Assembly (NCBI GenBank): GCA_001051155.2
Contig: JYIP02000005.1
Coordinates: 124,001-188,000, forward strand
DNA: 64,000 nucleotides
Source: Chrysoporthe austroafricana
Taxonomy: Eukaryota; Ascomycota; Sordariomycetes; Diaporthales; Cryphonectriaceae
Direction of reading: 5' to 3'
Below, in pieces: positions 45,493 to 63,980 of this stretch. The notes beneath the pieces are model-generated. The model made no database searches and was not told where the DNA came from. It worked only from the letters and a program-made list of their open reading frames with translations. Positions within the stretch are counted from its first letter, which is position 1. Each line of letters begins with the position of its first letter. The translations under genes were made by a program, and so were the position numbers.

Positions 45493-46449
45493 AAAAGTTA
45501 TAATAGATTATAAATCCATTTATAATTACTTATAATCAATATTAATTAAGATTGAAAAGTTGGATATATAAGATTAGACTTTTCCTACTATTAGATAGAT
45601 TTCATAATTGCTTTTCAGTCGTCAATCTAAGTATTAGTTCCTTTATAACTGGTATCTAATACGGATAGTGAATACTTAGCGAATTTTGAATATTTCAGAA
45701 CTGTATTTCCGTATACAGGTAGATTGTACTGCATACCGCCCTTGCCTAGCATAAACCTTTGACGTACCAGGTACTTGTGCTACTTGGGTGCTCATTACAC
45801 AAGACAAACTGCTCAGGATACTCGGTCGCGACTTCGACTAGATGACGCCCAACTCCACCGGAAAATACGGTTGATCATACATTCAGAACAAATTCAGAAC
45901 GATTGAGAAGAGCTAGATGAAATGAGAACAAGGCAGCATATCGCTCAAATCGTTCGCCACTGAACTAGTTGCAAGTATAAACGCGAGAATAGTCACTGTG
46001 GTATTCGGTGTTACCTACCACGTTAAACGGAGCAAGTATGAAGCGAGTGAAGAGACACTCCACTTTCTCCCCTTTGTTCATTTCGTAAACTTCAGATAAA
46101 CTGACGCGCATAGAGCAGGAATTGCGAAGGGACTTGGATGCTCAAGATGTTACTCAAGATAAGGCTCAAGGAGACACTTACTCTAATCATTGGAAGCTAG
46201 CCGTGTTCTTTGCATGTATCTGGACTATAGCCGAAGGGCTACTGCAACGAAGGCTAGGACAGTGCTAATGATCGATAGTATAACGATGCGAACGGCACTA
46301 ATTGGCAAACCCATAGCGAACAACGCATTCGAAGCACTGTTTAAGATAGTCGAGGAAATAGTCTCAGCGCTGTCAAGAAAAGGAAATAGCTATGTTCTGT
46401 AAAAACTAGTATCATCGACAGAAATGGAGTCGAAGAAGCTCAGGGCAGA
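45493..46449. other. Composition transition zone, no gene recognised
   Basis: The first 200 bp are still AT-rich, then composition becomes normal for the rest of the window. The open frame at 46,190-46,402 has no recognisable domain and is on a different frame from the membrane-protein pseudogene that follows. Nothing else is supported. Confidence 0.4.
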
Positions 46450-47233
46450 TTCTCAACATGCAAGAGATTCTGCTACGGTATCGTAGTCTTCACAAGTCTA
46501 TACCTTATTTCCGTCACATTCGAGGCGTTTTTGTTCTGTACACCCGTGCAGTACAACTGGGATAAATCTGTTGCGGGCACCTGTGATGTGCATGGGCAGA
46601 CCATAGCGTATACCGTAGCTGGCAGCACAAACATGGTCATTGATATCCTGATGGTTGCGCTATCTATGGCAAATCTCTTCCAACTCCAGATGTCAGTTTC
46701 CAAGAGACTAAGCGTCGCTTCAATGTTCAGTCTCAGCGCCATGTAAACGCCTATCCAAGAATCCCATTAGTCTGGTTTCAATAACGTAATCTCATAAGAC
46801 GTGGCAGAATTTGCATTACATCTCTTCTCCAAATTATCTCCATCACTCGGTAGGACTTGGACGACATAATCTACTCTTGCGTGGACGTGATGATATACTC
46901 AGTTCTCGAGTCAACGCTAGGCATCGTCAATATCTGCTTGCCTACTATCAAACCCGCAATGCTCGCTATGGGCAAGATAACTGGCCCAATTACTAATGCT
47001 TCCGGGCACACGGGTGGAAATTTCAGCAGTTGGGAGCCCAACCGAAAGGCAGCGGACTTGTCCTTCCTACCGGGAGGAAATTGGAAGGTGCCGTCTCAGA
47101 TACGCCGATGTTGGACTTTGAGCGGATGGACGACGAGCTGCCTCTCACCAACACCCGCATTAACGGAGGTTATATATTGCAATCAAATTTTAATGTTCTT
47201 TGGCTCTATACAAATTATATATATATTTAATAC
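46450..47233 (+). pseudogene. SAT4/rhodopsin-domain membrane protein, 5'-truncated and broken
   Basis: Exon-like 46,456-46,742 reads through a transmembrane stretch into LFCTPVQYNWDKSVAGTC, the family's F-x-C-x-P-V-x-Y-x-W-D signature. Then come a helix (MVIDILMVALSMANLFQLQM) and an intron at 46,743-46,807 (GTAAAC...CAG, phase 2). The next exon continues in frame (ICITSLLQIISITR) but hits TAG at 46,851-46,853. After it the family pattern resumes (ESTLGIVNICLPTIKP). A frameshift near 47,028 is needed to reach the tail ending FERMDDELPLTNTR. The first three helices expected of the family were not found upstream. Two lesions plus truncation support a pseudogene; a sequencing error could explain one of them. 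Confidence 0.65.
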
Positions 47234-47285: not shown

Positions 47286-48586
47286 TTAACTGGAATCCTT
47301 CGGTTCGGATATTCTATAAATTTCGCTTCGTGCAAGAATCCCGCCATTGTGGTCGAATTGGCCTTCCAAATCTGCATAACTAGCTGCTATAACGGTCCCA
47401 GGGCTGCTTAAAAAAGGTACCCCGTCAATGTATGGAGCTGTTGGCAAGGGTGGCCACTTGTTCGCAATAGAATGTAAGTCCACAGTACCAGTATCAGTAT
47501 CAGCCCGAGTTTGCGCTCCCCTTTCAGTTCTGCCTACTCGCCCGCGAGAAAGTAGTGTCCATTTGCTAAAAAACGTAGATGAAAGGTGATAGGCCAGGTT
47601 GCAGTGGCACTTGGCTAGAATTGGGGCCAGAGTCGGCATGCAGCATACGAGAATAGCAACGTTGGCTTCGACCTCTGACCACAGGATGAATAAGGTAAAG
47701 TCGGCAATGAAGTCAGGGTTGTCGGCCTTATCGTAAGACGTGACGAGGTAGATGTACATACGCGCAATACCTGCGCCGATCGTACTGGGCCAAAGTTAGC
47801 CTCTGTCTTGGAAGGAGTTGCGCCCTGATTGCTTTAAAGTAAAAGACTTACAACAATCCAACCATAAATATGCACGTAACTCCGACCTTCGTTCGAATTG
47901 GCATATGGAGCTTCCAAATTATGGGCACTGGCATGAACATGATGATGAGGTCCGTTGCTACGTCCGTCGCCGTGAAAACGGTCAGCATATTGAGAGTGTT
48001 GGTGCATTGCGTCAGGAAGATAGTAATAGGAGCCCAATTCCATGACCACTGCGTGCCACACTGAAAGATAGTAGCGAAGAAGAAGGCGACGGACCAGCAG
48101 GTCACAACGCCCATCATGACCCAGCAGAGGATGACAAAGGATCTAACCCTCCCAAACATCCGCTTCCAGAGGAGGAGAATGGAAAGCTTGATGAGCCCAA
48201 ATGTAATCTTCTCTGTCGTCTGAAAACCATATTTATACTTCTCGACAAGATGCTCCAGATCGGTGGTCACCGGCCAGTCATCAACAACTGGAGAATGGCC
48301 AGTAATTGCGCCTTGTATGGTACCAGCGAGGAAGCACCCGTTCAAGCCAAGCACAAAGACCTAGTACCCATTATCAATGATTCATTTCGATCAAGATAGA
48401 AATATATTCTACACATACCAATGCCGTGAGTGCGAACCAGTCATCCGCACCAAGACCAACTCTAGTCAGTCGTCTGCTGTAGAATCTCAGCCCAACTGCT
48501 GAGATTGTCATCAGATAAAATAGTACAGCCATGACTATCAGACCAGAACGGTTATTGACTTGCGCCAAGTGCGCCGAGAAGGCCAT
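47286..48586 (-). CDS. SAT4-like (fungal rhodopsin domain) integral membrane protein, 3 exons, 391 aa
   Basis: Exons on the minus strand: 48,586-48,419, 48,360-47,852 and 47,784-47,286. Introns are 58 and 67 bp (GTATGT...TAG, GTAAGT...CAG). The joined length is 1,176 bp including the TAA stop. About seven hydrophobic helices. The first helix pair holds the family motif LTRVGLGADDWFALTALV; exon 2 has FGLIKLSILLLWKRMF and FATIFQCGTQWSWNW; exon 3 has FILWSEVEANVAILVCCMPT and then a long hydrophilic tail. These are the marks of the SAT4/rhodopsin-domain family, frequent in fungal secondary-metabolite clusters and of mostly unknown biochemical role. The ATG at 48,586 gives a short extracellular N-terminus; an in-frame non-ATG extension upstream was not used. 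It shares a 691-bp divergent intergenic region with the UstYa-like gene and so could be co-regulated with it. Confidence 0.85.
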
Positions 48587-49277
48587 GGTATCAGGTTTGT
48601 CAACTATAGCAGCCTTGGCTCTTGGCAACTTTGCTTCGTGACGGAGAGACAGGTGGCTATTTGGTCAATGCGAAATCGCAGATGTGGATGATAAATTAGA
48701 CGAGAAGCAAATTGCTGAATATGTGAAGGGTTCCAGGAGTAGGCAGGCAGTAGAAGATACAGACGAGGAAAACAAATGCAAATGTAAGCATTACTTCGGT
48801 ATGAGTAAGCTTGAGCTATTTGAATCCGAGGTGATATGCGCCAACTTTGGCCCCCGTAACGGCCCCCAATAAAACACTCCTAAGGGACCCCAACAACAGC
48901 CCCCAACATGATATACAACCTCATTTCGTCAGCAGCACTTGCGCGAAGCAGTAAAGATCAACGGTTGTGCGTTTGGAAAATTAGTTAAGTGGCGTCACCG
49001 CGGAAAAAGTGAAACATCGTATCATGTAAAAGCAACGTAGTATATGCCTAAGGGCCTGACAAGCATGCATAAGGCTCAAGCAGACGACCAGGACTCCACC
49101 CCCCGACCTCGTCTTCAAAGAGGTCCTGAATCTTGGGTTATCGAACGTCAATCGTCTGCAATTCCCCTTCTTTATAGCGAAAGCGCTTAATTACACAGTA
49201 GACCGTGGCCCGGAGATGAACACTAGAACTCCGACAGCCAAGAATTCGATACTGAATCTCGCGTTGACTTTCTCGAC
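48587..49277. promoter_or_regulatory. Divergent intergenic region between SAT4-like and UstYa-like 1 genes
   Basis: About 690 bp with no coding signal; the open frame at 48,684-48,872 has no support. It must carry the promoters of both flanking genes. A CTTTATAG word about 105 bp before the UstYa ATG could be TATA-like. No binding site can be named with confidence. Confidence 0.4.
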
Positions 49278-50120
49278 ATGGCCTCTCTTAACAAAACGGA
49301 AGAGCAGCATGGACTACTCACTAGCGTCGAGGGAGCTGTCGACTACGAAGACAGAGTTATACCAACATACCTCAGCAACGGGCGCAGCCGTACGCTTACA
49401 GTTAAAGTCCTATTAGGGACATCACTCGCATTCAACGTGGCACTGTTCCTCCTACTCCTCGGCTCATTGCTTCGCACAGAGCCGACAGAGGAGGCCTCAA
49501 GATTCGCAGGCCTCCGCCGCCTCCGCGAGGAGCTGTACGTCCGTGTCACACACTACAGTTCTGACAACGAGACGCTCCAGGATCGGCTCTGGCATGACAT
49601 TAATATCGACTCCGGCGTAGTGGCACTTGACGATGCCTGGGCGGCGCAGCACGGCCTACGGACCGCGCAGCGCTTCCCGTGGGACTCAAATAAGGGCATC
49701 TATATCCTCCACGGCTTCCACAACTTGCACTGCCTCAAGATCGTGCACGGCGCCCTGGCTGAGTACCGGCGCGGCGTGCCACAGTCGCGATCTGCTGGTC
49801 ACATCTACCACTGTATGGACGCTTTGCGCAGGCAGATCCTGTGTGATGCTGATGACACGCCACGAGCAACAGACAGGCGCGGTGAGGTAGTTAGCGGGCT
49901 ACTCCAGCACCGGAAGTGCCGAAGTTGGGACGAACTGGAGGATTTTGCCAGGCGCCACACAGCGTGCTACAAACGTCCAGAGAATCCAGAGGATAGTGGC
50001 TTTAAGCTTGACCGATTCAAACACTGTCCTCCAGGGAGTGGATATATTGTCACAGATGACTATATTCCTATGGATGAGGTTCTTGTAGGCTTGCCAAAAG
50101 AGTCAGTGAGTGATGATTGA
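49278..50120 (+). CDS. UstYa-like (DUF3328) oxidase 1, intronless, 280 aa
   Basis: Single open frame from ATG 49,278 to TGA 50,120. A cytosolic N-terminus of about 40 residues is followed by one transmembrane helix (about 42-65, LLGTSLAFNVALFLLLLGSL) and a lumenal domain. Both defining HxxHC motifs are present: H148-N-L-H151-C152, inside YILHGFHNLHCLKI, and H175-I-Y-H178-C179. UstYa-family proteins are membrane-bound, copper-dependent enzymes that make oxidative cyclisations, halogenations or hydroxylations in fungal RiPP pathways such as those for ustiloxin and cyclochlorotine; that role is from the family. The gene ends 217 bp from the convergent precursor gene, the strongest clue to its substrate. 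Length is typical of the family. The C-terminal third (DDYIPMDEVLVGLP) is an ordinary tail. Confidence 0.92.
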   Translation: MASLNKTEEQHGLLTSVEGAVDYEDRVIPTYLSNGRSRTLTVKVLLGTSLAFNVALFLLLLGSLLRTEPTEEASRFAGLRRLREELYVRVTHYSSDNETLQDRLWHDINIDSGVVALDDAWAAQHGLRTAQRFPWDSNKGIYILHGFHNLHCLKIVHGALAEYRRGVPQSRSAGHIYHCMDALRRQILCDADDTPRATDRRGEVVSGLLQHRKCRSWDELEDFARRHTACYKRPENPEDSGFKLDRFKHCPPGSGYIVTDDYIPMDEVLVGLPKESVSDD

Positions 50121-50336
50121 GCTAGGTGCTCCGTGGGGATAGATACCTGTTGAAGCTATGCAAGGACCTCGGATTCCAGTGTGTTTGCATGTTGTCTATA
50201 ATACAAGCTATGTGGCGCTGAACGCTGTTACAATAGTCATAATCAACCAACATGTGCAACAGTCGGCATCGTACTCAAGATGACAGCCGACATCCTGCCC
50301 ACTCACGGGGTAGAAATTTGGAGTCTAGGTACATTT

Positions 50337-50674
50337 TCAAAGTTTGAACCCATCATAAACATCGATGTCTTCCTCACCACGCTTGAAGCCATCAGCAATA
50401 TCGATGTCTTCCTCATCACGCTTGAAGCCATCAGCAATATCGATGTCTTCCTCACTACGCTTGAAGCCACCCGCAATGGCGACATCGGCGTCCTCATGCG
50501 ATATGGCGGGGTGGGTATCTCTAGGTACCAAGATGCTCCGCACGTTACCTGTCTCTTGTCATTACGTATTTCGACTTATATGAGTACTTTGTCCTATAAC
50601 TTACCCGGATGAATAGGGTTTGTGACGGCAAGCGTGGAAAGGCTTAGAAACGCGGACAGTATAGAAAAGCGCAT
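50337..50674 (-). CDS. Secreted repeat-containing RiPP precursor peptide (Kex2-processed), 2 exons, 93 aa
   Basis: Exon 1 is 50,674-50,605 and exon 2 is 50,548-50,337. The 56-bp intron has GTAAGT and CAG ends, and the joined length is 282 bp with a TGA stop. Residues 1 to about 18 are a classical signal peptide (MRFSILSAFLSLSTLAV). From residue 41 there are four units of 13-14 residues: 41-54 (divergent), 55-67 SEEDIDIADGFKR, 68-80 DEEDIDIADGFKR, 81-93 GEEDIDVYDGFKL. Lys-Arg dipeptides at 53-54, 66-67 and 79-80 are Kex2 sites; the last unit ends KL then stop. Acidic spacers, a short conserved core ending D/G-G-F and KR borders are the layout of dikaritin and other Kex2-excised fungal peptides. 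The last unit alone has Tyr (VYDGF). Placed between two UstYa genes, it is the likely cluster substrate. The exact core boundaries are inference. Previously annotated proteins were not consulted. Confidence 0.8.
50361..50477. repeat. Three 39-bp tandem repeats encoding the precursor units
   Basis: Units 50,361-50,399, 50,400-50,438 and 50,439-50,477 differ at only a few bases each (for example CACCACG, CATCACG, CACTACG). A more divergent fourth unit follows to about 50,519. The 39-bp length equals 13 codons on the minus strand and keeps every Kex2 site in register. Confidence 0.95.
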
Positions 50675-50905
50675 TTTAGACTCTTGGATGGTTGAATGAC
50701 GGATGTTATTAGCCTGTAATCTTGTTCAAAGAAGTAGTACGAAGAAGGTAGAGTATCGATGTCCGCAGGTTGGATAAGGTCAAACGCATCTGTCGTAAAG
50801 CGGTCCCGCAACTACAGGCTTTTATGTACTGGTTGTTCGGGGACCTTTGCGGGAGCGTGTAAAAAGAAACAAATACGTAAGCATGATTACGACAAGCGCG
50901 TAATG
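50675..50905 (-). promoter_or_regulatory. Precursor upstream region, conserved in the decayed duplicate
   Basis: Sequence upstream of the precursor ATG is kept in the second copy at 61,220-61,455. The best-kept block is 50,831-50,870 (GGTTGTTCGGGGACCTTTG and TGTAAAAAGAAAC), almost identical to 61,372-61,412. It lies about 160-195 bp before the ATG and could be a regulator or promoter element. A short open frame across it (50,759-50,971) is also partly kept, but the kept part shows no coding-like substitution pattern that I can judge. Confidence 0.4.
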
Positions 50906-50974
50906 TTAATGTTACATGAAGTATTAAGACGCTGGCCGGAGCTGATTATGCAGCGTAACCCACCTTTATAAAAT

Positions 50975-51925
50975 CGCGCTAAACCTTTTTATTAGTAAGT
51001 TAAACTACCGGATTTCCGGCACGCTCTTTTTTTAACACTCCCGGTTAGCTATACTATATATATATATATATATAGGAATCGTTTACGCTTCTGCTATATT
51101 AATTATTGCAATTTAATATTTTTAAATTTTAATTAGTTTAATATCTTTTTTTTTATTAAAATTACTTATATTTCTATTTATTTATTTTTAAGCTTTTTAT
51201 ATTATTTATTTTATTTTAAAATTATATTAAGTTTTATTTTTAAAATAATATAAAACTAAATATAATTTTAATATTAATCGTTTTATAATTAATAATATAA
51301 ATTTTTAGCTTTATTAAAAATTATATATATATATTTTATTATATTTAAAAAGTTTAAAATAATAAATTTAAAAATTATAATAATAAGTAATGAATCCGAA
51401 AATTAAATATTTGTAATAAATATTTATATAAAAAGAATAAATTCGAAAATATAAATTAAAATTATAAAAACTTATCTTTATTTATTACTTTTTATTAATT
51501 TAATTTAATTTAAATTTTAAAAAAGATTAAAAAATAAAATTGAAGTTTTATACTTTTATTATTTTATTATTAATTTATTTAACCAAATTTCTTTATAGAA
51601 AGATAAATAAGTTTTTAAACAATTAAATAATAGTTTTAAACTTCTTTAAAATTAAATTTTATTAAAATAATTTACTTTTCTTATAAGCAAAAGCATTTAA
51701 TAAATTAATTTATATATTACTTTTTTCGCTTAATTACTTTAAAAGAAAAATACTTTTTGAAATAAATTGTTTAAAAAAAGCTTACATTTAAAATAAACTA
51801 TTTTTACCAGTATTAACAGCTTAAGCTAGCTTAAATTTAATACAAGGCTTTCTGTTCGTTATATATAAGTCGTTCGAAAAGATAAAATTATTTAGATTAA
51901 AATTAATAAAGAAAAACTTAAAAGA
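50975..51925. other. About 950-bp extremely AT-rich island inside the cluster
   Basis: Nearly pure A/T sequence with a (TA) run at about 51,054-51,074 and long T/A mixtures. It starts soon after a CTTTTTTTAACAC stretch and stops at about 51,925, where normal composition resumes. The duplicate locus (near 61,455-61,495) lacks it: there the precursor upstream block joins almost directly to the UstYa-2 upstream block. It is probably a RIP-decayed insertion or a surviving AT isochore piece. No LTR ends or frames are legible. Confidence 0.6.
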
Positions 51926-52297
51926 AGAGAGGTGGTTGAAAGGACGACATGACTAACTAGGGATGCAGGGAAGGGAGAGGTGCCGGGAACCCGGTGGTTT
52001 AACTTGACCAACGTGTCGATGTAAGTGGACAAGGCTTCAATGCCCAAGGCGCTCAGATCCTGGCGATCGCTGTGCCACCAACATTGGGGTCCACACGTTC
52101 TCGAGTTAGCGGCGGCTTAATACACCGCAAAGAACTCCCAACAGAAGTGGGGGCGATCCTAAGAAAGGGTTGGGCTTAGGATGCAATATCGACTCAAGCA
52201 TGCATGCAAGCTTTGAGAAATATTATCTGTTGAATAATGAACTCGAATCTTCTAGTTTCGGCCACATCTCGTTCTTCTTGTACACCTGGATAAGCAT
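51926..52297. promoter_or_regulatory. Upstream region of UstYa-like 2
   Basis: Non-coding. The last 150 bp (from about 52,145, GGGGCGATCCTAAGAAAGGG onward) are closely matched at 61,500-61,665, so the promoter-proximal part predates the duplication. Confidence 0.4.
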
Positions 52298-53190
52298 ATG
52301 GTGACCGAAATGCATGCCTACAAAATCACTACCGACGAGGATGAAGCCAGTCTCGGAGCCATGCTAATCGAAATACCGGCGCCTTATTCGAAAGGACCAA
52401 GAGCTTCAAGATCTCTCTACCCGCTGTTCGTGCTCTGCTGCACCATGGCCACAGTGACTGGGTTCACCGCCGGCACTTTCTTAGCTCGCACTGATGCTGT
52501 CTTGAGACTCGACAAGAGCGACACATCTGCAGTCACGCCTCGTATACCTCTGCCCGCCATCGAACGCGAGTTTACATACAATTCAGCGTTCTCTAAGGAA
52601 CCTCCACATGGTCCTGGAGCAGGACAGGCATCAGAGCCAATTTGGGATACACTGATACCAAGTGAGTTCACAAGCATCTCTCAAGAGAATTACCAGCCTA
52701 CAACCCTATCAAGACAGACAGCCACATCTTTCTGCATTGGGTGGTTCTCTTCTGACCGTATATGATCAATACAGCCGGGTTGGGCTATTTCCAGGACGAG
52801 TCTCTCGCGCCGCAGACCTCGATACCTACAGTCTTCCACCAGCTGCACTGCCTGTATACCCTGCGGCGGGCTTACTACTACTCCTCCGCGGGCGGCGACA
52901 GTGACAAGGAGCTTCAGGACTTCGACCTCGGCCGGGCCCGTGGACCACACGTAGCTCACTGCTTTGACTACCTCCAACAGGGGCTGACATGTCTGGCTGA
53001 CAGCACGGTCGAGCCCGCCGTTGACGAGGAGCACCGCTTCCTCGGGAGCGGGCTGCGGCGGCAGTGTCGGGATTTTGACACCTTGAAACGCTTCGTGCAG
53101 GAGCGAAGGGTGTTTAACGCGACTGGATTTCTGGCACATGGCATGAGGGGCGAGAATATCAGCGTAGACGGAGGGCAGATGCGACATTAA
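52298..53190 (+). CDS. UstYa-like (DUF3328) oxidase 2, 2 exons, 259 aa
   Basis: Exon 1 is 52,298-52,661 and exon 2 is 52,775-53,190. The 113-bp intron has GTGAGT and CAG ends with a CTGAC branch site 20 bp before the acceptor. The joined length is 780 bp with a TAA stop. A hydrophilic N-terminus is followed by a transmembrane helix at about 40-63 (LYPLFVLCCTMATVTGFTAG). The usual family segment IWDTLIPTG sits at 115-123. The two HxxHC motifs are H143-Q-L-H146-C147 (VFHQLHCLYTLRR) and H180-V-A-H183-C184. The family acts as copper-dependent oxidative enzymes on ribosomal peptides. UstYa proteins often occur in pairs, both needed for cyclisation in ustiloxin-type pathways. Its divergent layout with the precursor (1.6 kb apart, including an AT-rich insert) supports shared regulation. 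A broken copy of its 5' end lies at 61,666. Confidence 0.9.
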
Positions 53191-54229
53191 CTGAGACTCA
53201 TGCTCTATATATTGCTCGGGTAAGCGAGTTGCACAATCTAGCTTTCGAAGCAGACTATTCTATTACACATTCGATGATACATCTACACAGGTGACGCTCT
53301 GGATTACTGTGTGAACTAAATATTCTTTCTGTCGTCTATCAAACGGCTTAGGCCGGGATATAAGATGAACCTTGGGTATGGACAGAAGGCTACGTTCAGG
53401 TTGCGTTGATTACCTAAAGCAGCCAGGCCTTGGCGGCTAGGGCTATGGAAATGGCATCGGCAAGGAGGCATGAGTCACTGGCTCTTGTACCTCGGGTGAT
53501 GAACTATCGAGCCATAATACTACATGACCATGCGGGTGAGCAATACTGGAATGGATTGCCGCCCCCAAAATGTTGGCCACGGGGATTTTCACATGTTCGG
53601 TCAGAATGCAGATGTCTCTGGATAGTACTACGTGGGGTTAAGACGAATACAGTCCTGAATAATGTTAGTAGATTTTGTTTACAATTAAGGTTGAGCAGCT
53701 CAGTGCTTTCCAACTTGAGCAGAATAAAACCCTTGAAAAACAAACATTCTCGCGCCTTGCAACAAGGATGAGCGACAAGTAAAATGTCTACAGACCCCCA
53801 GCAGTTCTTAAGGACGGCAGACCCCACGTTGCAGCGGGCTGGCAAAAAGATACCATACCTACCTGATACATGATCGGCACTTAATTTACTCTTTGTGTCT
53901 CAGTCACGAAAGCCTTTGCTGACTGACTTTGCCACGTCACTGTGGCCCCACCCGATTGGCTGCATGCATTGACGATCACATTTCCAAACTGCGTTCTACA
54001 GCAAACCCTACCGAAGCCTCGAGCCTGGTTGCGATATTGCGAACCCACCTGCGATCGAACTTACAAAGGTGCCGCAAAGATACCCCATTCGAACCTCCAG
54101 CCTCACATCGATTCCATCAATACAGATCGTACTGCTTTCTGTACAATCTGTTTGCAAGCACTGTGGAACATTTGTCTAGCCTTGACTGCTTTCTGAGCGC
54201 ATCAGGTCTCAGCCACAACCATTACAGCC
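53191..54229. other. Intergenic, UstYa-like 2 to carboxylesterase
   Basis: No supported gene. At about 53,345-53,410 a stretch (GGGATATAAGATGAACCTTG) matches 61,910-61,975, the right edge of the duplicated segment. Opposing open frames at 53,430-53,845 and 53,929-54,345 are featureless. The last few hundred bases should contain the esterase promoter. Confidence 0.4.
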
Positions 54230-56539
54230 ATGCCAGGAAACAACATCCTGCCCTTGCTAGGCATAGGAGCCCTAATCTTCGGACTCACCGCCATCCTCCT
54301 CGAGCCATGCCGGGACTTCATAGCCCAGAAGACTACTGGGTATGATATCGACCTCCCTTCTTCCTGGATGCTAAGCGGGTCGTCGTCCTTTTCCCCCGTC
54401 GTCGTCCTGGACGAGGGTCGCGACATCCGGTACATTGGCAGCCACTCATCTGCTGGCGTCGAGCTCTTCCAGAACATCTTCTATGCCGAGGATACGTCGG
54501 GCATGAATAGGTTCGCGCCACCGGTGCCGGTTCGACCAGCAAGGGGCACTGTGATTGACGCCACACAGCCCGGCGCCTGGTGTCCACAGGCAACTGGCGA
54601 TGTGCTTCCCTTTACAAGTCGCGTTACTAACGTGAGTGAGAACTGTCTGAGCTTGCGCATCGCTCGCCCGCGCGGGACCAAAGCAGGTGCCGGGCTGCCG
54701 GTCATGGTGTGGCTGCATGGAGGTAAAGTGTTCAAGCTCACACACTGCTGCTCGCCATGGTAGAAAAGAGAGAAGAGAGCTGATTTATGTCACTGTGTTA
54801 TGTCTTCAGGGGGACACGCTCTTGGCTCGGCTTCGGAAGTCCTATACGAGCCCGATGGTTTGGTAAGGGAGGCCGCTTCGAATGACCAGCCGCTGATCTT
54901 CGTTGCTATAAACTACCGTCTGGGCTGTAGGTTTTTAGAATGCTGCGCATTATGAGTCACTGCCCAGACTGACTTGATTTCTCTAATTAGTCTTCGGTTT
55001 CGCGACAAGTGAAGCGCTGGTAAAGGCTAAGCATACAAATGCTGGTCTGCGAGACCAGCGAGCGGCTCTTGAATGTGAGTAAGGAGAGAGAAACAACTGC
55101 CGCCGGTTTTCAGATTTTCTACCCTCTCTCCTCTTTTTGCGAGATACTGATCGATATGCAGGGGTTCGAGATAACATTGAAACTTTCGGTGGAGATCCGC
55201 AGAGAGGTAAGAAACATTGGAGAAGTAGTCATCTCGAGCTGGCATGATCTGCTAATGATTACTTTTTACAAATAATGAAGTGACCGCTATAGGTCAAAGT
55301 GTGGGAGCCAGCGATATCAGCCTCCAGCTCACTGCGTTCGGGGGGTTGCATGGCGTTCCATTCCAACAAGCAATGTACGTCGTTAACTACCTTGGCTGAA
55401 TAATTACTGTCCAAGATGATTATTCTTCGGCAGCTCACAGAGGATGGCACAGCATGATGTCAGGCGGCCCAGGCCTGAACTTTAACACTAAGTCCGACCT
55501 AGTCGCGAACAACACGGCAGCCATTGCACAAGAAGCCGGATGCACCTCGATGGTTGAAAATGACCGGTCGCAGCAGCAGGACACCCTGGCATGCCTACGC
55601 CAAGCCCCCGTCGACCTTCTCACCAACCTCTCGGTCAGCGCATCCCGTGCCCAGCGGCCACCTTTTGGTGAAGGATTCTTCTTCCCGACGTATGACAATG
55701 ACTTCGTGCCCGACAGGCCCTCGCAGCTGGTTCGCGCCGGAAGGGTGGGCGCCAAGGACCTGCCCGTTATCACAGCCTGGGTTACTAATGACGGGGCGTG
55801 GTACGCTCCGCCTACAACAGCCAGTGATGAAGATGTGTTGGCTAGCTTCGGGCTATGGCTATATGGGCTATCAGCGGCGACTAAGTCCAGGCTTCTGGAG
55901 CTATACAGGTTAGAAGATTTCGAGCATATGGCTTCCGCTGCTGGGGCTGGTGTCGCGCCGCAGTACTACCGCGCTGCGCAAATGAACCGGGACCTATGGT
56001 TTACGTGTCCTGTGCTGGACTTTGCGTGGCAGTACGCGAGGCTTAGCGGACGGGGACAAGGAGGAGGAGGAGGAGGAGGAGGAGCAGGAGGGAATGTGCG
56101 CGTGTACGAGCACAATGCAACGCGGTACGGCCCCTCGTTCGAGATGATGGGCGTGCCCTTCTGGCGCGTCGCGCATCTCAGCGACATACCTTATGTCTTG
56201 AATGTGCAGCGGCTAGGCGGGGGCGCCGATAACTCGGAACCGCAGCTTGCCATGGCCAAGGACATCAGTCAGGCTATTGCTAGGTTCGTAAACTCAGGCG
56301 TTGCCAATGAGGAGTGGCCTCTCGCTTTTGCCGGCACAGGCGATGATGAATGGGCGGCCGAGTTTCCAAGCAGGCTTTCGCTGCAGGTGTTTGGTGGACC
56401 TTATGGCGGGGAGCATGTGACTGTTCGAAAGGGCCATACGGCTACAACACAGGCGGAAGAGGCTGTAACGTGGGAGAAATTGTTTGAAAGGTGCGAGTTT
56501 ATCAATAGTGTACAGGTAAGGGAAGAAATAGGAGTGTAG
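54230..56539 (+). CDS. Type-B carboxylesterase/lipase, 6 exons, 639 aa
   Basis: Exons 54,230-54,722, 54,810-54,926, 54,991-55,074, 55,162-55,206, 55,281-55,374 and 55,453-56,539 give 1,920 bp with stop. Acceptors were chosen to keep family motifs in frame. The N-terminal hydrophobic stretch (7-25) is a signal peptide or anchor. Motifs: oxyanion segment VWLHGGGHALGS (about 159-170), NYRLGFFGF, then G251-Q-S-V-G255 with Ser253 as nucleophile, where the family usually has G-E-S-A-G. The catalytic His is probably H519 (VAHLSDIPYVLN). The acidic member is less clear; N-D-G near 390-392 takes the usual D-E-G position. A run of glycines (about 479-491) is coded by GGA repeats and looks like a loop expansion. 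Likely role: hydrolysis or acyl transfer in or beside the peptide pathway. Such esterases are common outside clusters too. Confidence 0.85.
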
Positions 56540-56758
56540 AAAGCTTACAAGCTTTTTATAAAAATTAAAAATGAAACCATAAAGTTTTCATGTTGAACCA
56601 GAAGGGCACCCGCGTTCAGCGGACCAAACAGTCTTGATGCCATTTAGCTAAATAACCATGGTCATGCGGAATATACTAATAATAGGCTCGAAATCATTTT
56701 CAACACTTATAGATCACCAGGCCCACTGTAATTGAGCTATTGGCTCGATTGGGCCTCT

Positions 56759-58316
56759 TTAGGCCAATTCGCACTCAATCAAATTCTCAACATCGGACTT
56801 TCCACACTTCCAAAATTTGACAATCTTGAGGTTCAGTCCACTTCCTTCGATCAATTGATGCCAGTTGTCCTCCGTACGCTCCAGAGCCGAGAGCTGCGTC
56901 ATCATAAGGATGTCTCCAGCAGTGGCTTCCCAGTAAGCACCGGTACGAGGGATCACGCATTCGAAGATCAGCAGCTTACTGTATCCAGGCTTCATTGCAT
57001 CCGCAAGGCAAGCCAGGATCTTCTTACACACATCATCCGGCCAGTCATGGAGAATGGAATGCATAAAGTAAGCCCTTGCGCCCTTGATGGGCTGCTCCGT
57101 CAAGAAGTCATGGCCCATCAGCTGGATCTCTGGATTGATGCCTTTGACATCTTGAATAACCACAGGAAGATCCTGTAGGATTAATTTCTGTGTAAAGAAC
57201 AAAGTCAGTACATGAAGACAGGTTAATTTCTGATTGCAATCTCAGACACTAACCCCTGGGTGGTTTGGGTAATATTTCTTAAACTCATCAATGTCGTGCC
57301 CGAGACCTCCGGCAACGTCAACCACAAGTGGCGCATCAGGCGAGGTATCTGCGCCGGGAAATAACACCTTTTCGACAGGATAAAGCGAAGGGTGCATCCA
57401 CGGCAAGCGACCCTGTCTGTAGCCACCCACTAAAACAAAATCATCAGCGACTGACCATTCTTCACGTCCAAGGACGGTATTGGCACTAACTATGGTGGTT
57501 CGTGTGAGGGCCTAAGCCAATGGAGCGGAGATACTCGAAACAATTCGGCTGGTCGGTGTTGTAAGACGCGTGCATCGCTGTGTGGGCGGCATCGGTGGGA
57601 TTCTGCCACTTGGTATCGCGAAGGAACTTGTAGAACTCAATTGGGCTGCGACCGATTCCGCCAAGTCTAGAGAATATCGTCAGTAGACCTAATAAGCACG
57701 ACCTCGGGCTACTTACAAAGAAACGTAGCCGTCCCCGATGACATCGAGGCTTAGGGATTTAGTGAAGCTTGTGAGCTTATACTCGTCCTGCCCCACCTCT
57801 TCAAGATGACCCATAGCGCAGACATGGCGCATCAGACGACCTATAAAATGGACTGTGAGCCTGGGTTCCTTTTGTATAGGTTGCGTAATATGTTGCATCA
57901 AGTCACCGACCGAGAAGCAGTGCGTCTACGCCGAGAGGGCCAGCAAGCTCGTCAACCTTCTGAGGGGTATCGACGCCGTTCTTGACCATTAGCTTCCAAA
58001 GCCTAACATCGACACCGGTGATCAAAGCAGCATTGAGTCCGGGCTGAAAACGCCTTCAAGTTAGTACGTGAGGTCCAGGATGACGAGGGTCTTGAGCTTG
58101 GTCACGTACATCGGCCCAGATGTGCTGCACCATCTGCTCCCGGGGGGTGAGGAGAGACTGAAGAAGGTTCCGTGTTTTGGCCACGAGCTTCTGTCGGGTA
58201 TCCTCATCACCATCCTTCATGCCGCGGTGCAGAGCATTGACGTCTTCGATCAAACTTGGTACGGCACTCGGATTATTCGGCCGAGTAGCGACGGAGAGAT
58301 CAATTGCTTGGGACAT
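56759..58316 (-). CDS. COMT-like SAM-dependent O-methyltransferase, 6 exons, 414 aa
   Basis: Minus-strand exons 58,316-58,110, 58,043-57,911, 57,840-57,717, 57,666-57,491, 57,429-57,254 and 57,187-56,759; introns 50-70 bp; total 1,245 bp with TAA. The N-terminal dimerisation/winged-helix part includes LLGRLMRHVCAMGHLEEVG (about 110-130). The SAM-binding motif is VVDVAGGLGHDI (249-260), followed by LQDLP (276-280). The catalytic region FMHSILHDWPDD has H319 as the general base of this class. The later ALERT matches the family's catalytic Glu position. All Methyltransf_2 marks are present and the length is normal for fungal O-methyltransferases. The second intron's donor (GTCGGT) is weak, so that junction is the least certain. 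Convergent with the esterase (219 bp apart). Likely methylates a hydroxyl on a metabolite, perhaps the modified peptide. Confidence 0.87.
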
Positions 58317-59586
58317 GCTGACTGTTGTGTCACAATTTTCACAAAAGCCTGCGTACGTGGTATGTAAGGTGAATCCCTGGAGTTGCAGGGAGAGGTCTGC
58401 TTTGTATACGTCCGTACTGTGTGAAAAAGCGGTCAAGGGTTTGGGATTCCGCATCTCGTGTATCTAATCGTCTCACATCCAGAGGAACTAGTACCTTTAA
58501 AGAGACGATGCTACGTAAATAGAGGGGCTGTAGACGTGTGATATGCATATAATCATCCATTGGGAATGGTCCAGGGCCCCAGTTATCTGTCTCCTACGTA
58601 GTGTCGATTCCGTTCGCAATTCTGCTTACAATATGCTGTTTCACCGAGGGAGTAAGAAGTTTCTCTATGGAAACAGAGTCCAACAACCCAGCATTGAAAT
58701 TTGAAACGGGACTTTTCGAGGATGCGTGCGGCACAGCAGTAGGGGGTCCCCATACTCCATGCTCTGTGCGTAACGGTGGTGGTATCCATGTTCACCAGTT
58801 CACGCAGATAGACGTGGATGGCTTCCCGAAAATCAGCACATCCCTAGTTGGAACGGCCTTCCCTCGAGCCTTCGACTGCCAGGAGGGGGAGTGCGAGGGC
58901 CTGCGTGTCTTGGACGACGTTTCTACAGTAATCCGTACATAGGAGAACGCCCTGTGACCCACAGCGGCTAACCCTGTGTACGGACTACACATATGGGGCG
59001 CCGGGGAAGCGATCCGAGCTGCGTATGGCCAGGGAACCGCAGGGCTTGATCTTTGCAGTAATATCCGAAATTGGTATACGAAAGGATTCTGGTCGTACTT
59101 CGTAGGATTTATGCAGGAAGGTGCCGATCAAAACAGAAACGTCCCTAACAGTCTATAGCGAGGGATGAGGGGCAATGTGTTAAGACCTGTTGCGGTTTTT
59201 GTAATCAGCAATTTAGCAGGGATCCAGTTATATGCCTGCGTACCAGGGTACAGCACCCGCGTGGCCAAGGTTGCCAGGGTTTGTCCGAGGTCGCATTGTG
59301 CTGGGTCGTGGTCAATGTGTTGATAGATATCGCAAGAGAAACATCTGACTTTCGTGAGATCATCTCTTATTGAGATGTGCCTGGATATATCCAAAAAGAA
59401 AAAAGAAAAATCGCAGGGACCGAGAGCAGAAATCGACATACACGTAAAGTCGGTAACTGCTTCGCTCCCCACAACAGCCGGATCGGCATTTAGGGGAGGC
59501 ATGTCATCTGCTATCACGTACTCTCCTTCAGTCTCACGGAACCATTGAAGCCCTTTCAACTCCCCTTGATATTGGTCGCTGTCAAG
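58317..59586. promoter_or_regulatory. Divergent intergenic region between O-methyltransferase and second SAT4-like gene
   Basis: About 1.27 kb. Open frames here (58,601-58,942 begins with GTG, 58,976-59,158, and 59,128-59,694 on the minus strand) lack domains and intron logic. It is best read as promoter DNA for the two divergent genes. No specific site can be named. Confidence 0.35.
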
Positions 59587-61032
59587 ATGGCCGACGACAA
59601 GGGCCCCATGATCATTGTGGTCTGCTGGACCTTCACAGGCCTTGCTCTTCTCTTCGTCGCAGCTCGACTTTATGTCAGAGCTGCTTTGCACCATAAGCTA
59701 TCCAGTGATGATTACCTGATCCTTTTCTCTTCGGTATGTACAGAGCCTATGCGTACTTCTGGGCTGGTTCCCATCAAAACCTAACAAACGCCCGGCTGAT
59801 GCTTATCTTCTAATAGACATGTGCTGTCCTCTCCAATATTTTGGTTACGATTTCAGTCTATTGGGGTAACGGCCAACACTTCGCCAATCTTGACCTAGAA
59901 CAGCAGCAAAATACAATCAAGTGGATGATGGCGGCATACGTTCCCGGGATAGAAACTCTCGGATTTCCGAAGCTCGCCGTCATTGCTCTCCTAGTGCAAT
60001 TACTCGTTCCTAGCCGGTTACACACCTGGATTCTATGGACCATGGGTGGAATATGCTGCATGTCATTTACCGCTATGGTCATGACACTGCTCCTGCAATG
60101 TACACCTCCCAGAGCTCTCTGGACCTTCTCGCTGCCCCACAAGTGTCTACACACAAGCGTGCTGGAGGGACTGGCATTTTGGGCGAGCAGTGAGTTGACC
60201 TCTCCCAGCAAAGCATAATTGAAGACTGACCAGCGTGTTGTTGCTAGCATGCTCTGCGTTCCTCGACTTTTACTTAGCAATATATCCAGCGGTCGTTCTT
60301 TGGCAGCTGCAGATGCCAAAGCAAAAGAAGTTGGCTCTCAGCTGTGCTCTCGGTATGGGCGTTGTGTAAGCATCGAGACGCTTGAATTTTCAGGAGCTGT
60401 CTGATTAACAAGAGTAGATCGGGATGTGTCGGCATTGTGAAAGCTACAGGCGTGCCAACCCTTGGTAGCCAAGACGTCAGCTGTAAGTCATCAGGCAAGA
60501 CGCGATCCAGATACTGAAAACTAATGGATCACGAAGATGAACTATGCGATCCCCTGTACTGGACGTCGTGAGTCCTATGCCTCCTCGGCTCTTCTACGTC
60601 TCAGCCAACTAACTATATCTCTGGTGTAGTATCGAAGGCAATCTCATCATCATCGCAGCCTGCATCCCGATCCTTCAGCCCTTGGTTGAGAAGATCAAGG
60701 GCCGCAGCATCTGGGGCTCGAGGGGTGGCAGTAGCAAAAATCTCCAGTACGCAAACTTCAGCAGGCAAAGCGCTCGGCAGCCTGACCCGATCGAGCTACA
60801 GAATAAGCCTAAGAAGAAAGTTGATGTATACGGGTTTACAATATACGCAAAAGAGGACAGTGAAGAGAATATTATCAGCCCAGACAAACAGTCTACGAAT
60901 GGATCCTCCGGTCGCCAGAGTGGGACATACAATCCAAGCGCCAGGATTATAAAGACAAATACCTTTACCGTTACCTATGATCAGGGAGAAGAAGGGCCAA
61001 TCTCAGCAATCACCAGATGGGCTGCCATCTGA
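59587..61032 (+). CDS. SAT4-like (fungal rhodopsin domain) integral membrane protein, 6 exons, 378 aa
   Basis: Exons 59,587-59,733, 59,817-60,189, 60,248-60,365, 60,418-60,482, 60,537-60,567 and 60,630-61,032; total 1,137 bp with TGA. Introns are 52-83 bp with GT...AG ends, including a 31-bp micro-exon fixed by frame on both sides. About seven hydrophobic helices. First helix VVCWTFTGLALLFVAARLYV, then the family motif LSSDDYLILFSS. Exon 2 contains FPKLAVIALLVQLL and LLLQCTPPRALW. Exon 3 has FLDFYLAIYPAVVLWQLQMP, and exon 6 begins IEGNLIIIAACIPILQPLVE. A long polar C-terminal tail is rich in Ser, Lys and Asn. The function of this family is mostly unknown. It bounds the cluster on the right as its relative at 47,286-48,586 does on the left. 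Confidence 0.83.
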
Positions 61033-61060
61033 ATTACATGATTACCAGGGCTTTAACTAA

Positions 61061-61219
61061 TCTCTACGTATTAAGATGCTCTGCCTGTTACCTATCTCTC
61101 ATCATTACGTATTTCGACTCGTATTATAGGTATTTAGTCCTGTAACTTACTAGATAAACAGGGCCTGCGATGGTAAGCGTAGAAACGCCTAGAAACGCGG
61201 ATAGCATGGAGAATCGCAT
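61061..61219 (-). pseudogene. Decayed duplicate of the RiPP precursor
   Basis: Exon 1 (61,219-61,151) still codes a good signal peptide (MRFSMLSAFLGVSTLTIAG). It has lost one base just before the GTAAGT donor, so the frame after the intron (61,150-61,092) is wrong and meets a stop within a few codons. The homologous sequence ends about 61,060, before any core repeat, and no Kex2 sites remain. It cannot yield the peptide. Confidence 0.75.
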
Positions 61220-61665
61220 TTTCGACTGTTGGATGGTTGAATGATGGATGTTATTGGGCTGTAATTTTGCTCAAAGTAGCATTAAGAAAGTAGAGTACCG
61301 ATATCCGCAGATTAGATGAGGTTAGCTGCTTCCGCCGTGAAGCGGTGCCTCAATAACAGGCTTTTATTTATTGGTTGTTCGGGGACCTTTGTGGGAGCGT
61401 GTAAAAAGAAACAACCAACAGGTAAGGATTATTACGATAAGCGCGTAATCATGGTAATGAACTTGTTAGTTAGTCACTCGCCGTCCACAACAAAAGTGAG
61501 GGGCGATCCTAAGAAAGGGTTTGGCTTAGGGTGCGATATCGACATGCAGCCCGACAGCATGCATGCAAGCTTTGAAAAATGTCATCTTTTGAATAATGAA
61601 CTCTAATCTTCTAGTTTCGTTCTATGCGGCCATATTTCGTTCTTCTTGAATACCTAGACAAGCAT

Positions 61666-61895
61666 ATGGTGACCGAAAAGCATGCCTACAAAATCACCAC
61701 CCGCGGGGATGAAGCCAGCCTCGAGGTGTTGCTTATTGCAACACCAGCGCCCTAATCGACCGGACCAGGGCGTCGAGAACTCTCTACCTGCTGTTTGTGG
61801 TCTGCTGCACTGCGGCCTCAGTGATTGGTTCAACACCGGCAGGTTTTTGGCCCGCAGCAATACTGTCTCGAGACTTGACGAAAGAGACACTTCTA
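61666..61895 (+). pseudogene. Decayed 5' fragment of a UstYa-like 2 duplicate
   Basis: The ATG at 61,666 opens MVTEKHAYKITTRGDEASLE, clearly the same start as the intact gene (MVTEMHAYKITTDEDEASLG). A TAA at 61,753-61,755 ends it after 29 codons. The transmembrane region is still recognisable beyond a frameshift. Both HxxHC motifs are missing because the matching DNA is deleted. Confidence 0.8.
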
Positions 61896-61980
61896 CAACC
61901 ACCGGCTTAAGTCGAGATATAAGGTGAACCTTGGGCATGGGAAGAAGGCTACGTCCTCGAGTTGGCTGAGTACTTACTAC

Positions 61981-62508: not shown

Positions 62509-63980
62509 TCCAAGCATCAACAGGTTGTAGAGAAGATACAGGACGCCTTTCCAAAGAGGCTATTGATCGACATTGCCAAGACCGGATCCTGCAACGACTC
62601 TGATTCCGCAAGCTGCAGGATCGAAAATCAAGCATAACCGAAGTTTATCATAGGGCTCTTCGCTTGGCACTAGATCCATCACAAGGCGATGTTGAATGGG
62701 ACGATCTTTCCGAATGGCTAGTGACTAGCCGCAAGATTTATTGGATATGTGGCAAGGCAGGAAGCGGCAAATCCACCCTCATGAAATTTTATATGGACAT
62801 CAATGGCGGCATTCCTAAAGGAATGGGCAGGCAATCGCTTACTGACCCCGCAGTTTTTTCTTTTCAACCTTGACAGCCACGGACAAAAGAACCAGGAGGG
62901 GCTCTGCAGGTGCTTCCAGTCAAATCCAAAGTCCATTTCAAGACTTCTTCCACACGTATGGAATGAAGCACAAATCTCAGACGAGAATGAGTTGGAGCTG
63001 CCTTCTATGAATGAAATGGTAGAACCTTTTTCAGCGCTAAGTGCTCTTTCCGAGCCCAAACTATGCTTCTTTGTCGATGGACTGGACGAATATGACAGCG
63101 ATTACATGCAGGCTATCTCGTCCATGGAAAAGTTGGCTGCCAACTCAAATGCCAAGGTTGTAGTCTCAAGCCGACTGACTCCAGCGTTTGCAGCATTCCC
63201 AGACAAGAATCTCAGCCTCCAGGATCTGAATCGGCAAGACATCACTGCATAGGTTAACGACAACCTTCGATCTCACGAGTAGATGGAATGATTGCCCGAA
63301 TTTGATCGAACTTCAGTCAATGCTATCCTTAAGTATCTGGTCGAGAAGTTCTTGGATGTGTTTGTCTGGGTCTACCTGGCGTGTACATCCTTATTAGAAG
63401 GAATCCTTTCCTTCGACCATATCTCAGACCTACAACAGAGAGTGGAGGAACTATCCGGGAAGCTCCGAGACCGTTTCCTGCCCATGCTTAAGAAAATCCC
63501 TATACGGTGTCGGAGACAAGCCGTTAAATATCTATGAACTTGCTATGAGGCTCACTGCAAGAAGCTGGACATCTAAATCCAATCGGGCAGCAGACCAAGT
63601 GCCAAAAATTCGACGGTCGTCTAAGAAGTCGCTCCTGTGGACTTCTTGAAATTCATCGACGCCGCAAAAATCATCAAGGGAGTGATATGTGCTGTTGTTG
63701 CGGTTTCTTTGACTGGCCAAGAATAAGCCACGATACTTTCGTGGAATCTATCGTCAAGTTTCTCCACCGAAGCGGCTTTGAATTTCTGAGCGATTCCGAT
63801 GTCTAGAAGTTAGACTACCTTGACTTGAATGATGATAATGGCAGTTTTAACGCCGACTCAGCACTTACCGCTATGTCGTTACTCCTAGCTCAGACGTAAT
63901 GGTCAAATGGATCACAGCATCAGCCACGCGGCTTTCTGTTGGGATGTTTGTAGTACGCTCGATTGATAGAAAAGTCGCAT
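62509..63980 (+). pseudogene. NACHT/STAND-type NTPase (NLR-like) pseudogene
   Basis: Pieces in different frames spell a fungal NACHT protein. FRKLQDRKSSITEVYHRALR at about 62,603-62,660, then WDDLSEWLVTSRKIYWICGK AGSGKSTLMKF has the Walker A motif (GKAGSGKST, about 62,751-62,777). A frameshift near 62,798 is followed by KEWAGNRLL and QKNQEGL. Walker B reads FFVDGLDEYDSDY (about 63,070-63,108). Then come LSLQDLNRQDITA with TAG at 63,250-63,252 and further stops, a relic helix FLDVFVWVYLACTSLLEGIL near 63,350-63,405 and decayed sequence to the window end. Such proteins serve in fungal non-self recognition and cell-death pathways. Several frameshifts and stops make it non-functional. It may continue past 64,000. 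Confidence 0.75.

Follow-up and report, generated by a model that had tools for sequence, protein, structure and literature searches.

A locus at positions 47,286 to 61,032 of a 64,000-nucleotide stretch of the Chrysoporthe austroafricana genome (hereafter the window; bases 124001-188000 of contig JYIP02000005.1, assembly GCA_001051155.2) probably directs the synthesis of small oxidised peptides of the dikaritin-like type, a class of ribosomally synthesised and post-translationally modified peptides (RiPPs). Dikaritins are derived from Kex2-processed repeat proteins (KEPs) and cyclised by UstYa enzymes (PMC10512285). A first-pass annotation, made from the letters of the window alone, had called the locus dikaritin-like, and gene models and Pfam searches bear this out, placing every gene it had named within the interval, with a repeat precursor between two UstYa/DUF3328 genes whose HxxHC motifs are intact, with no tyrosinase close by, and with a gene pairing that is kept in other fungi. 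The locus is real and conserved, and it is probably functional in relatives. Its core is unusual in being mostly free of Tyr, and new here are a truncated relic of the precursor and one of its UstYa partners and a 1-kb element with terminal inverted repeats (TIRs).

The precursor gene consists of a signal-peptide exon (50674-50605) and an exon encoding the cores (50548-50337), separated by a 56-nt intron (50604-50549) with the borders GTAAGT..CAG. The cores read, in order, DVAIAGGF-KR, DIDIADGF-KR, DIDIADGF-KR and DIDVYDGF-KL followed by the stop, and in the DNA they appear as a 39-bp tandem repeat of 3.4 copies with 90% matches, in frame after the signal-peptide exon. Three of the four cores are therefore followed by KR, at which cleavage is predicted, as in the secreted precursors of dikaritins; a KR had initially been assigned to the last core as well, where KL is present instead. 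Compared with some 5.8 billion proteins, with E values of up to 10 admitted, the precursor drew 87 candidates, of which the sole match was VSDG_03392 of Cytospora chrysosperma, an uncharacterised 91-residue protein that aligns with it end to end at 56% identity (E 2.9e-20). This direct relative has the same four-core plan, with DVDIADGF-KKR, DIDIADGF-KRR, NIDIADGF-KKR and DIDIADGF-RL, and in both species the dibasic site after the final core is replaced by a basic residue and Leu. The in-frame repeat behind a signal-peptide exon, together with an end-to-end homologue sharing the core plan, puts the precursor beyond chance. An antisense frame on the plus strand (50202-50612) that lies over the precursor was rejected, since it is the minus strand that accounts for the signal exon, the canonical intron and the match to the Cytospora protein.

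Across the eight cores of the two species the consensus is [DN][IV][DA][IV][AY][DG]GF. None of the eight departs from Gly7 or Phe8, and all carry Ile or Val at positions 2 and 4; Asp occupies positions 1, 3 and 6 in seven of eight cores each. Tyr is present in one of the four cores here and in none of the four in Cytospora, leaving seven of eight cores Tyr-free. The conserved unit is an octamer, longer than the core first proposed, D-(I/V)-(A/Y)-D-G-F. The precursor had no match among phage records, and the core strings had none in the one literature collection searched, in agreement with the first-pass description of the cluster as undescribed; loci of this general type, however, have been predicted in large numbers (PMC7329392).

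The two genes adjoining the precursor encode proteins that exceed the 25-bit cut-off used for PF11807 (Table 1). Each has a pair of HxxHC motifs, beginning at residues 148 and 175 in UstYa1 and at 143 and 180 in UstYa2, and a hydrophobic stretch near residue 44, which by hydropathy spans about residues 44-62 in UstYa1. Two HxxHC motifs and a predicted N-terminal membrane helix, the latter from hydropathy in UstYa2 and additionally from a low-confidence structural model in UstYa1, mark both as DUF3328 proteins. In an alignment of 36 sequences, H148, C152, H175 and C179 of UstYa1 never vary and H151 and H178 hardly do, and in UstYa2 all six motif residues are invariant over 39 sequences. The AlphaFold2 model of UstYa1 (predicted local distance difference test score 65.4, predicted template-modelling score 0.47) contains a helix at residues 35-65 and places the HxxHC motifs on helices 145-165 and 173-191. 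As modelled, this arrangement would correspond to that described for CctR, the DUF3328 hydroxylase of cyclochlorotine, which is a binuclear copper, O2-dependent enzyme (PMC12435403). CctR shares the HxxHC(x)nHxxHC motif and the N-terminal membrane helix with the proteins studied here but differs in acting on a non-ribosomal cyclic peptide (PMC12435403). UstYa1 and the UstYa2 profile found no match by sequence among solved structures, and the UstYa1 alignment, when run against the sets viral_contigs and genome_contigs, returned 14 and 20 pattern stretches, respectively, with no relative among them.

Conserved co-occurrence, which the first-pass annotation had put forward as a check, was then found on two counts. 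Relatives numbered 135 for UstYa1 (120 of them listed) and 68 for UstYa2, and among the matches listed at least 26 of the 68 UstYa2 relatives share a contig with a UstYa1 relative, as judged by identical contig size in bases and by locus tags. All 26 fall within the 57 best UstYa2 matches and none within the 11 weakest. Twelve of the pairs are from Xylariales and 11 from Eurotiales (nine Aspergillus, two Penicillium), with three others, two of which sit on short contigs of 5,325 and 27,086 bases; the best-scoring named UstYa1 matches listed are likewise from Xylariales. Four pairs have tags that plainly number the genes by position (Xylariales sp. No.14919, Anthostomella pinea, Penicillium concentricum and P. 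robsamsonii), and in each of them exactly one tag separates UstYa1 from UstYa2, in the manner of the precursor here. Pairwise distances of UstYa1 and UstYa2 over the 26 pairs and the window are correlated (r 0.79; none of 2000 label permutations reached this value, the highest being 0.29), a correlation to which shared species history contributes. The second count is from Cytospora, where the tag following that of the precursor homologue, VSDG_03393, belongs to a relative of UstYa2 that is 74% identical over 58% of the query; both genes are on contigs of the same size (869035). Given the single intervening tag in the UstYa pairs and the Cytospora precursor beside a UstYa2 relative, the conserved unit is probably UstYa1-precursor-UstYa2.

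This arrangement bears on whether the precursor is simply a linear secreted-peptide gene, of signalling or effector type, that happens to adjoin UstYa genes and whose cores are secreted without modification once Kex2 has cut and carboxypeptidase has trimmed them. Most KEPs are of the kind that such an explanation needs, as 6120 of 7878 predicted KEPs lack a nearby DUF3328 gene and 1758 have one, and Tyr, which is mostly missing from the present cores, is rarer in the former group (38.2% of repeats) than in the latter (65.6%) (PMC7329392). The 65.6% figure also means that Tyr-free members exist among DUF3328-linked KEPs. We regard the linear-peptide explanation as improbable, because the precursor is flanked on both sides by UstYa genes here and adjoins a UstYa2 relative in Cytospora, because the UstYa pair is interrupted by one tag in four relatives, and because precursor and UstYa2 were duplicated together (see below).

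For a modified peptide, the route would begin with the signal peptide taking the precursor into the secretory pathway, where Kex2 would cut after KR to leave pieces that each comprise an acidic spacer and a DIDIADGF-type core. Trimming of the basic residues would then expose the C-terminal Phe, and membrane-anchored UstYa1 and UstYa2 would serve as the copper oxygenases or oxidases that modify the cores, either in the Golgi or at a later stage. The product to be expected is a small peptide of acidic character that carries an oxidation at Ile/Val2 or Ile/Val4 and is possibly closed by a link between Phe8 and one of these residues, a guess made because seven of eight cores are Tyr-free and all eight have Phe8 and Gly7 and are aliphatic at both position 2 and position 4. 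By analogy with victorin, our first guess is a Phe8-Ile/Val cross-link; the alternative is that Ile/Val is simply hydroxylated. Victorin, from Cochliobolus victoriae, is a KEP/UstYa-type RiPP in whose ring the side chain of a C-terminal Phe is joined to an internal Leu (PMC9233826), and a C-terminal Phe with internal aliphatic residues is found in eight of eight cores here. The core sequence of victorin is a different one, and chlorination and the remaining victorin steps have no identified counterpart at this locus.

Few KEP/UstYa peptides have been characterised, five being named in PMC10512285, and the mention of ustiloxin-like loci among Xylariales clusters in PMC8403587 is in general terms only. 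The locus resembles those of ustiloxin and phomopsin in its secreted, dibasic-cut repeat precursor, the acidic spacer before the core and the adjoining UstYa homologues (PMC10512285, PMC9233826). It departs from them in both of their distinguishing marks, Tyr in the core and a tyrosinase in the cluster, as well as in its accessory genes: Tyr is missing from seven of the eight cores, and a genome search for tyrosinase (PF00264) found none in the window and none on the same contig closer than 1.63 Mb. Loci with UstYa and without tyrosinase have precedents in asperipin-2a and in lichen clan R2 (PMC12048977), although these have one UstYa gene against two here, and no reductase or GNAT gene was seen at the present locus. 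The reduced enzyme set first described is largely confirmed, in that the window is also free of flavin monooxygenase (FMO)-like matches, the nearest on the same contig being at 0.92 Mb, and of S41 peptidases, for which the genome has a single match on another contig; the statement on peptidases is limited to S41, other peptidase families not having been searched.

The genome also contains UstYa loci of another type. KEPs were sought in 24 sequences, namely part of the window, three stretches from flanks or ends, and 20 of the 28 UstYa loci that the genome has besides this one. The finder used requires three similar units and misses short or diverged KEPs. The scan gave 13 rows, and 72 block shuffles gave none. 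Four loci were kept (L029, L033, L037 and the window), and the rows dropped were two of low complexity at L030, one each at L034, L038 and L040, and rows in other frames at L033 (two) and L037 (one). Clear KEPs were thus present at three of the 20 other loci, all with Tyr in their repeats. At L033 (2223-3138 of the locus; about 40.2-41.1 kb of contig C16), a KEP whose units, at least 11 in number, are of the HTYGVDEDEIAKR type lies near a UstYa match, and a tyrosinase match starts 570 bp after the latter, suggesting a Tyr-type dikaritin-like locus. Tyr-containing, KEP-like frames were observed near the UstYa matches of L037 (7460-8486) and L029 (8222-8708). With Tyr-bearing KEPs at these three loci, the genome seems to hold both a Tyr type and a mostly Tyr-free type.

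Downstream of UstYa2 and at both ends of the locus, the carboxylesterase, the O-methyltransferase and the two SAT4-like genes reported in the first pass proved to be real genes by model and by Pfam domain (Table 1). Esterases have a three-part active site, and PF00891 enzymes act on phenols. The O-methyltransferase frame had appeared broken near 57.5 kb, a break that was discarded as unnecessary because 11 GT-AG introns of 40-150 nt are able to close it there. Two of the spliced models scored 80.1 and 80.4 bits for Methyltransf_2, which does not improve on the score of the second piece by itself, and the choice of intron is for this reason uncertain.

Table 1 Features of the locus and its surroundings (positions in the window)
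Feature	Position	Strand	Support
SAT4-like (Fung_rhodopsin) fragment, third in the window, at the edge of its AT-rich left part	46390-46746		67 bits
SAT4-like/fungal rhodopsin-domain membrane protein, 391 aa, 3 exons	47286..48586	-	Fung_rhodopsin 170.9 bits
UstYa1 (DUF3328, PF11807), 280 aa, single exon	49278..50120	+	Pfam 68.6 bits
Precursor, 93 aa, Kex2-type repeat protein	50337..50674	-	Gene model, tandem repeat, Cytospora homologue
AT-rich TIR element, 1003 bp, between the divergent precursor and UstYa2	51000..52002		TTAA at both ends; inverted repeats 20/23 positions
UstYa2 (DUF3328, PF11807), 259 aa, exons 52298-52661 and 52775-53190	52298..53190	+	Pfam 73.8 bits
Carboxylesterase, 639 aa, 6 exons, N-terminal hydrophobic segment	54230..56539	+	COesterase 265.6 bits, GQSVG motif
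O-methyltransferase (PF00891), one intron uncertain	56759..58316	-	Methyltransf_2 82.1 bits (second piece)
SAT4-like/fungal rhodopsin-domain membrane protein, 378 aa, 6 exons	59587..61032	+	Fung_rhodopsin 148.3 bits
Truncated relic of the precursor-UstYa2 pair, beside the second SAT4-like gene and just past the end of the interval first annotated	61060..61955	+	Repeats, alignment

Membership of these neighbours in the pathway and a methylated product, both suggested in the first pass, are conjectural. A true seven-gene cluster, in which the esterase, the O-methyltransferase and the SAT4-like proteins would tailor or export the peptide, is possible but in our estimate doubtful. The seven genes are contiguous, with no other modelled genes between them, and of the 28 further UstYa loci six have a Fung_rhodopsin match within 10 kb, where random placement would give 1.94 (51 of 5000 draws reached six); this comparison, like the two that follow, ignores gene density. 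This excess is a hint that SAT4-like proteins are associated with UstYa pathways in this genome. It is, however, weak at 5 kb, with three loci against 1.03 expected (405 of 5000 draws), while at 20 kb it is moderate, with eight against 3.53 (85 of 5000); the domain is common, with 160 matches in the genome that merge into at least 130 loci, and three of the four cores offer no phenol to a methyltransferase of the PF00891 type.

Just past the second SAT4-like gene, the relic retains the precursor's signal exon and leader, the promoter that precursor and UstYa2 share, and the beginning of UstYa2, in which a stop codon occurs. It has no core repeat, and its last part matches DNA downstream of UstYa2. 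Its identity to the intact copy is 80-93% in pieces (repeat families D4-D11) and 79-80% in a whole-genome DNA search, and at the protein level 68% for the UstYa2 N-terminus, with one TAA, and 50% over 28 residues for the precursor exon. The TIR element is not in the relic, and similar repeats occur at other places in the genome. The two start codons are 1624 bp apart at the locus and 447 bp apart in the relic, a difference largely due to the 1003-bp element. By these comparisons, precursor and UstYa2 once formed a compact divergent unit that was duplicated as a whole, after which either a transposon entered the promoter of the working copy or the element was lost from the relic. A weak NPHP3_N (NACHT-like) match, in a stretch split over several frames, was observed nearby at 62604-62870.

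Several observations weigh against a working RiPP locus. The TIR element is inserted in the promoter common to the precursor and UstYa2, which makes expression of the locus doubtful; the paralogous copy exists only as a relic; the first core, DVAIAGGF, has diverged; and the O-methyltransferase frame closes only with the extra intron. For these four reasons, the locus may be silent or decaying. The comparative evidence has its own weak points: a single homologue of the precursor was found, no Cytospora relative of UstYa1 is among the 120 of 135 matches listed, shared contigs were judged by size and tag, and the UstYa1 model is of low confidence. A former KEP/UstYa cluster that has been silenced by a promoter transposon and by sequence decay would account for the lengthened distance between the start codons and for the relic without cores, and it would suit the setting: the contig (C18; 5,060,702 bases of a 48.15-Mb genome in 22 contigs) opens with CCCTAA telomere repeats, which makes the locus subtelomeric, and GC content is 26% over the first 46 kb of the window against about 50% in the cluster region. 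We consider such decay unlikely, though deserving of weight, as reading frames are open and introns canonical in the precursor, UstYa1, UstYa2, the esterase and both SAT4-like genes, no catalytic motif is broken, and the repeat array retains its dibasic sites. A conserved KEP/UstYa-type locus remains our preferred reading.

The surroundings of the locus were covered over the next 20 kb downstream of the window, where, in the selected frames scanned, a GMC oxidoreductase, a Pyr4-like membrane cyclase, a short-chain dehydrogenase, a Myb protein and a P450 were found, together with a partial transcription-factor domain that scored under its cut-off. The matches to the Pyr4-like terpene cyclase, the GMC oxidoreductase, the short-chain dehydrogenase and the P450 in this part of the contig (188-208 kb; L020:9206-9637 and around) are close together and are perhaps a separate terpenoid cluster.

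With regard to the wider family, we tentatively suggest that UstYa1 and UstYa2 are a co-inherited pair across Xylariales and Eurotiales that would modify a Tyr-free acidic core by Phe-Ile/Val joining or aliphatic oxidation, and that they may represent a distinct, widespread and unnamed branch of KEP/UstYa systems with a chemistry of its own. If the pair is co-inherited in some two dozen genomes, a single characterisation would annotate many loci. As a compact, conserved three-gene unit with two UstYa proteins and a mostly Tyr-free core, the locus offers a clean case for asking how UstYa copper enzymes act where a phenol is lacking.

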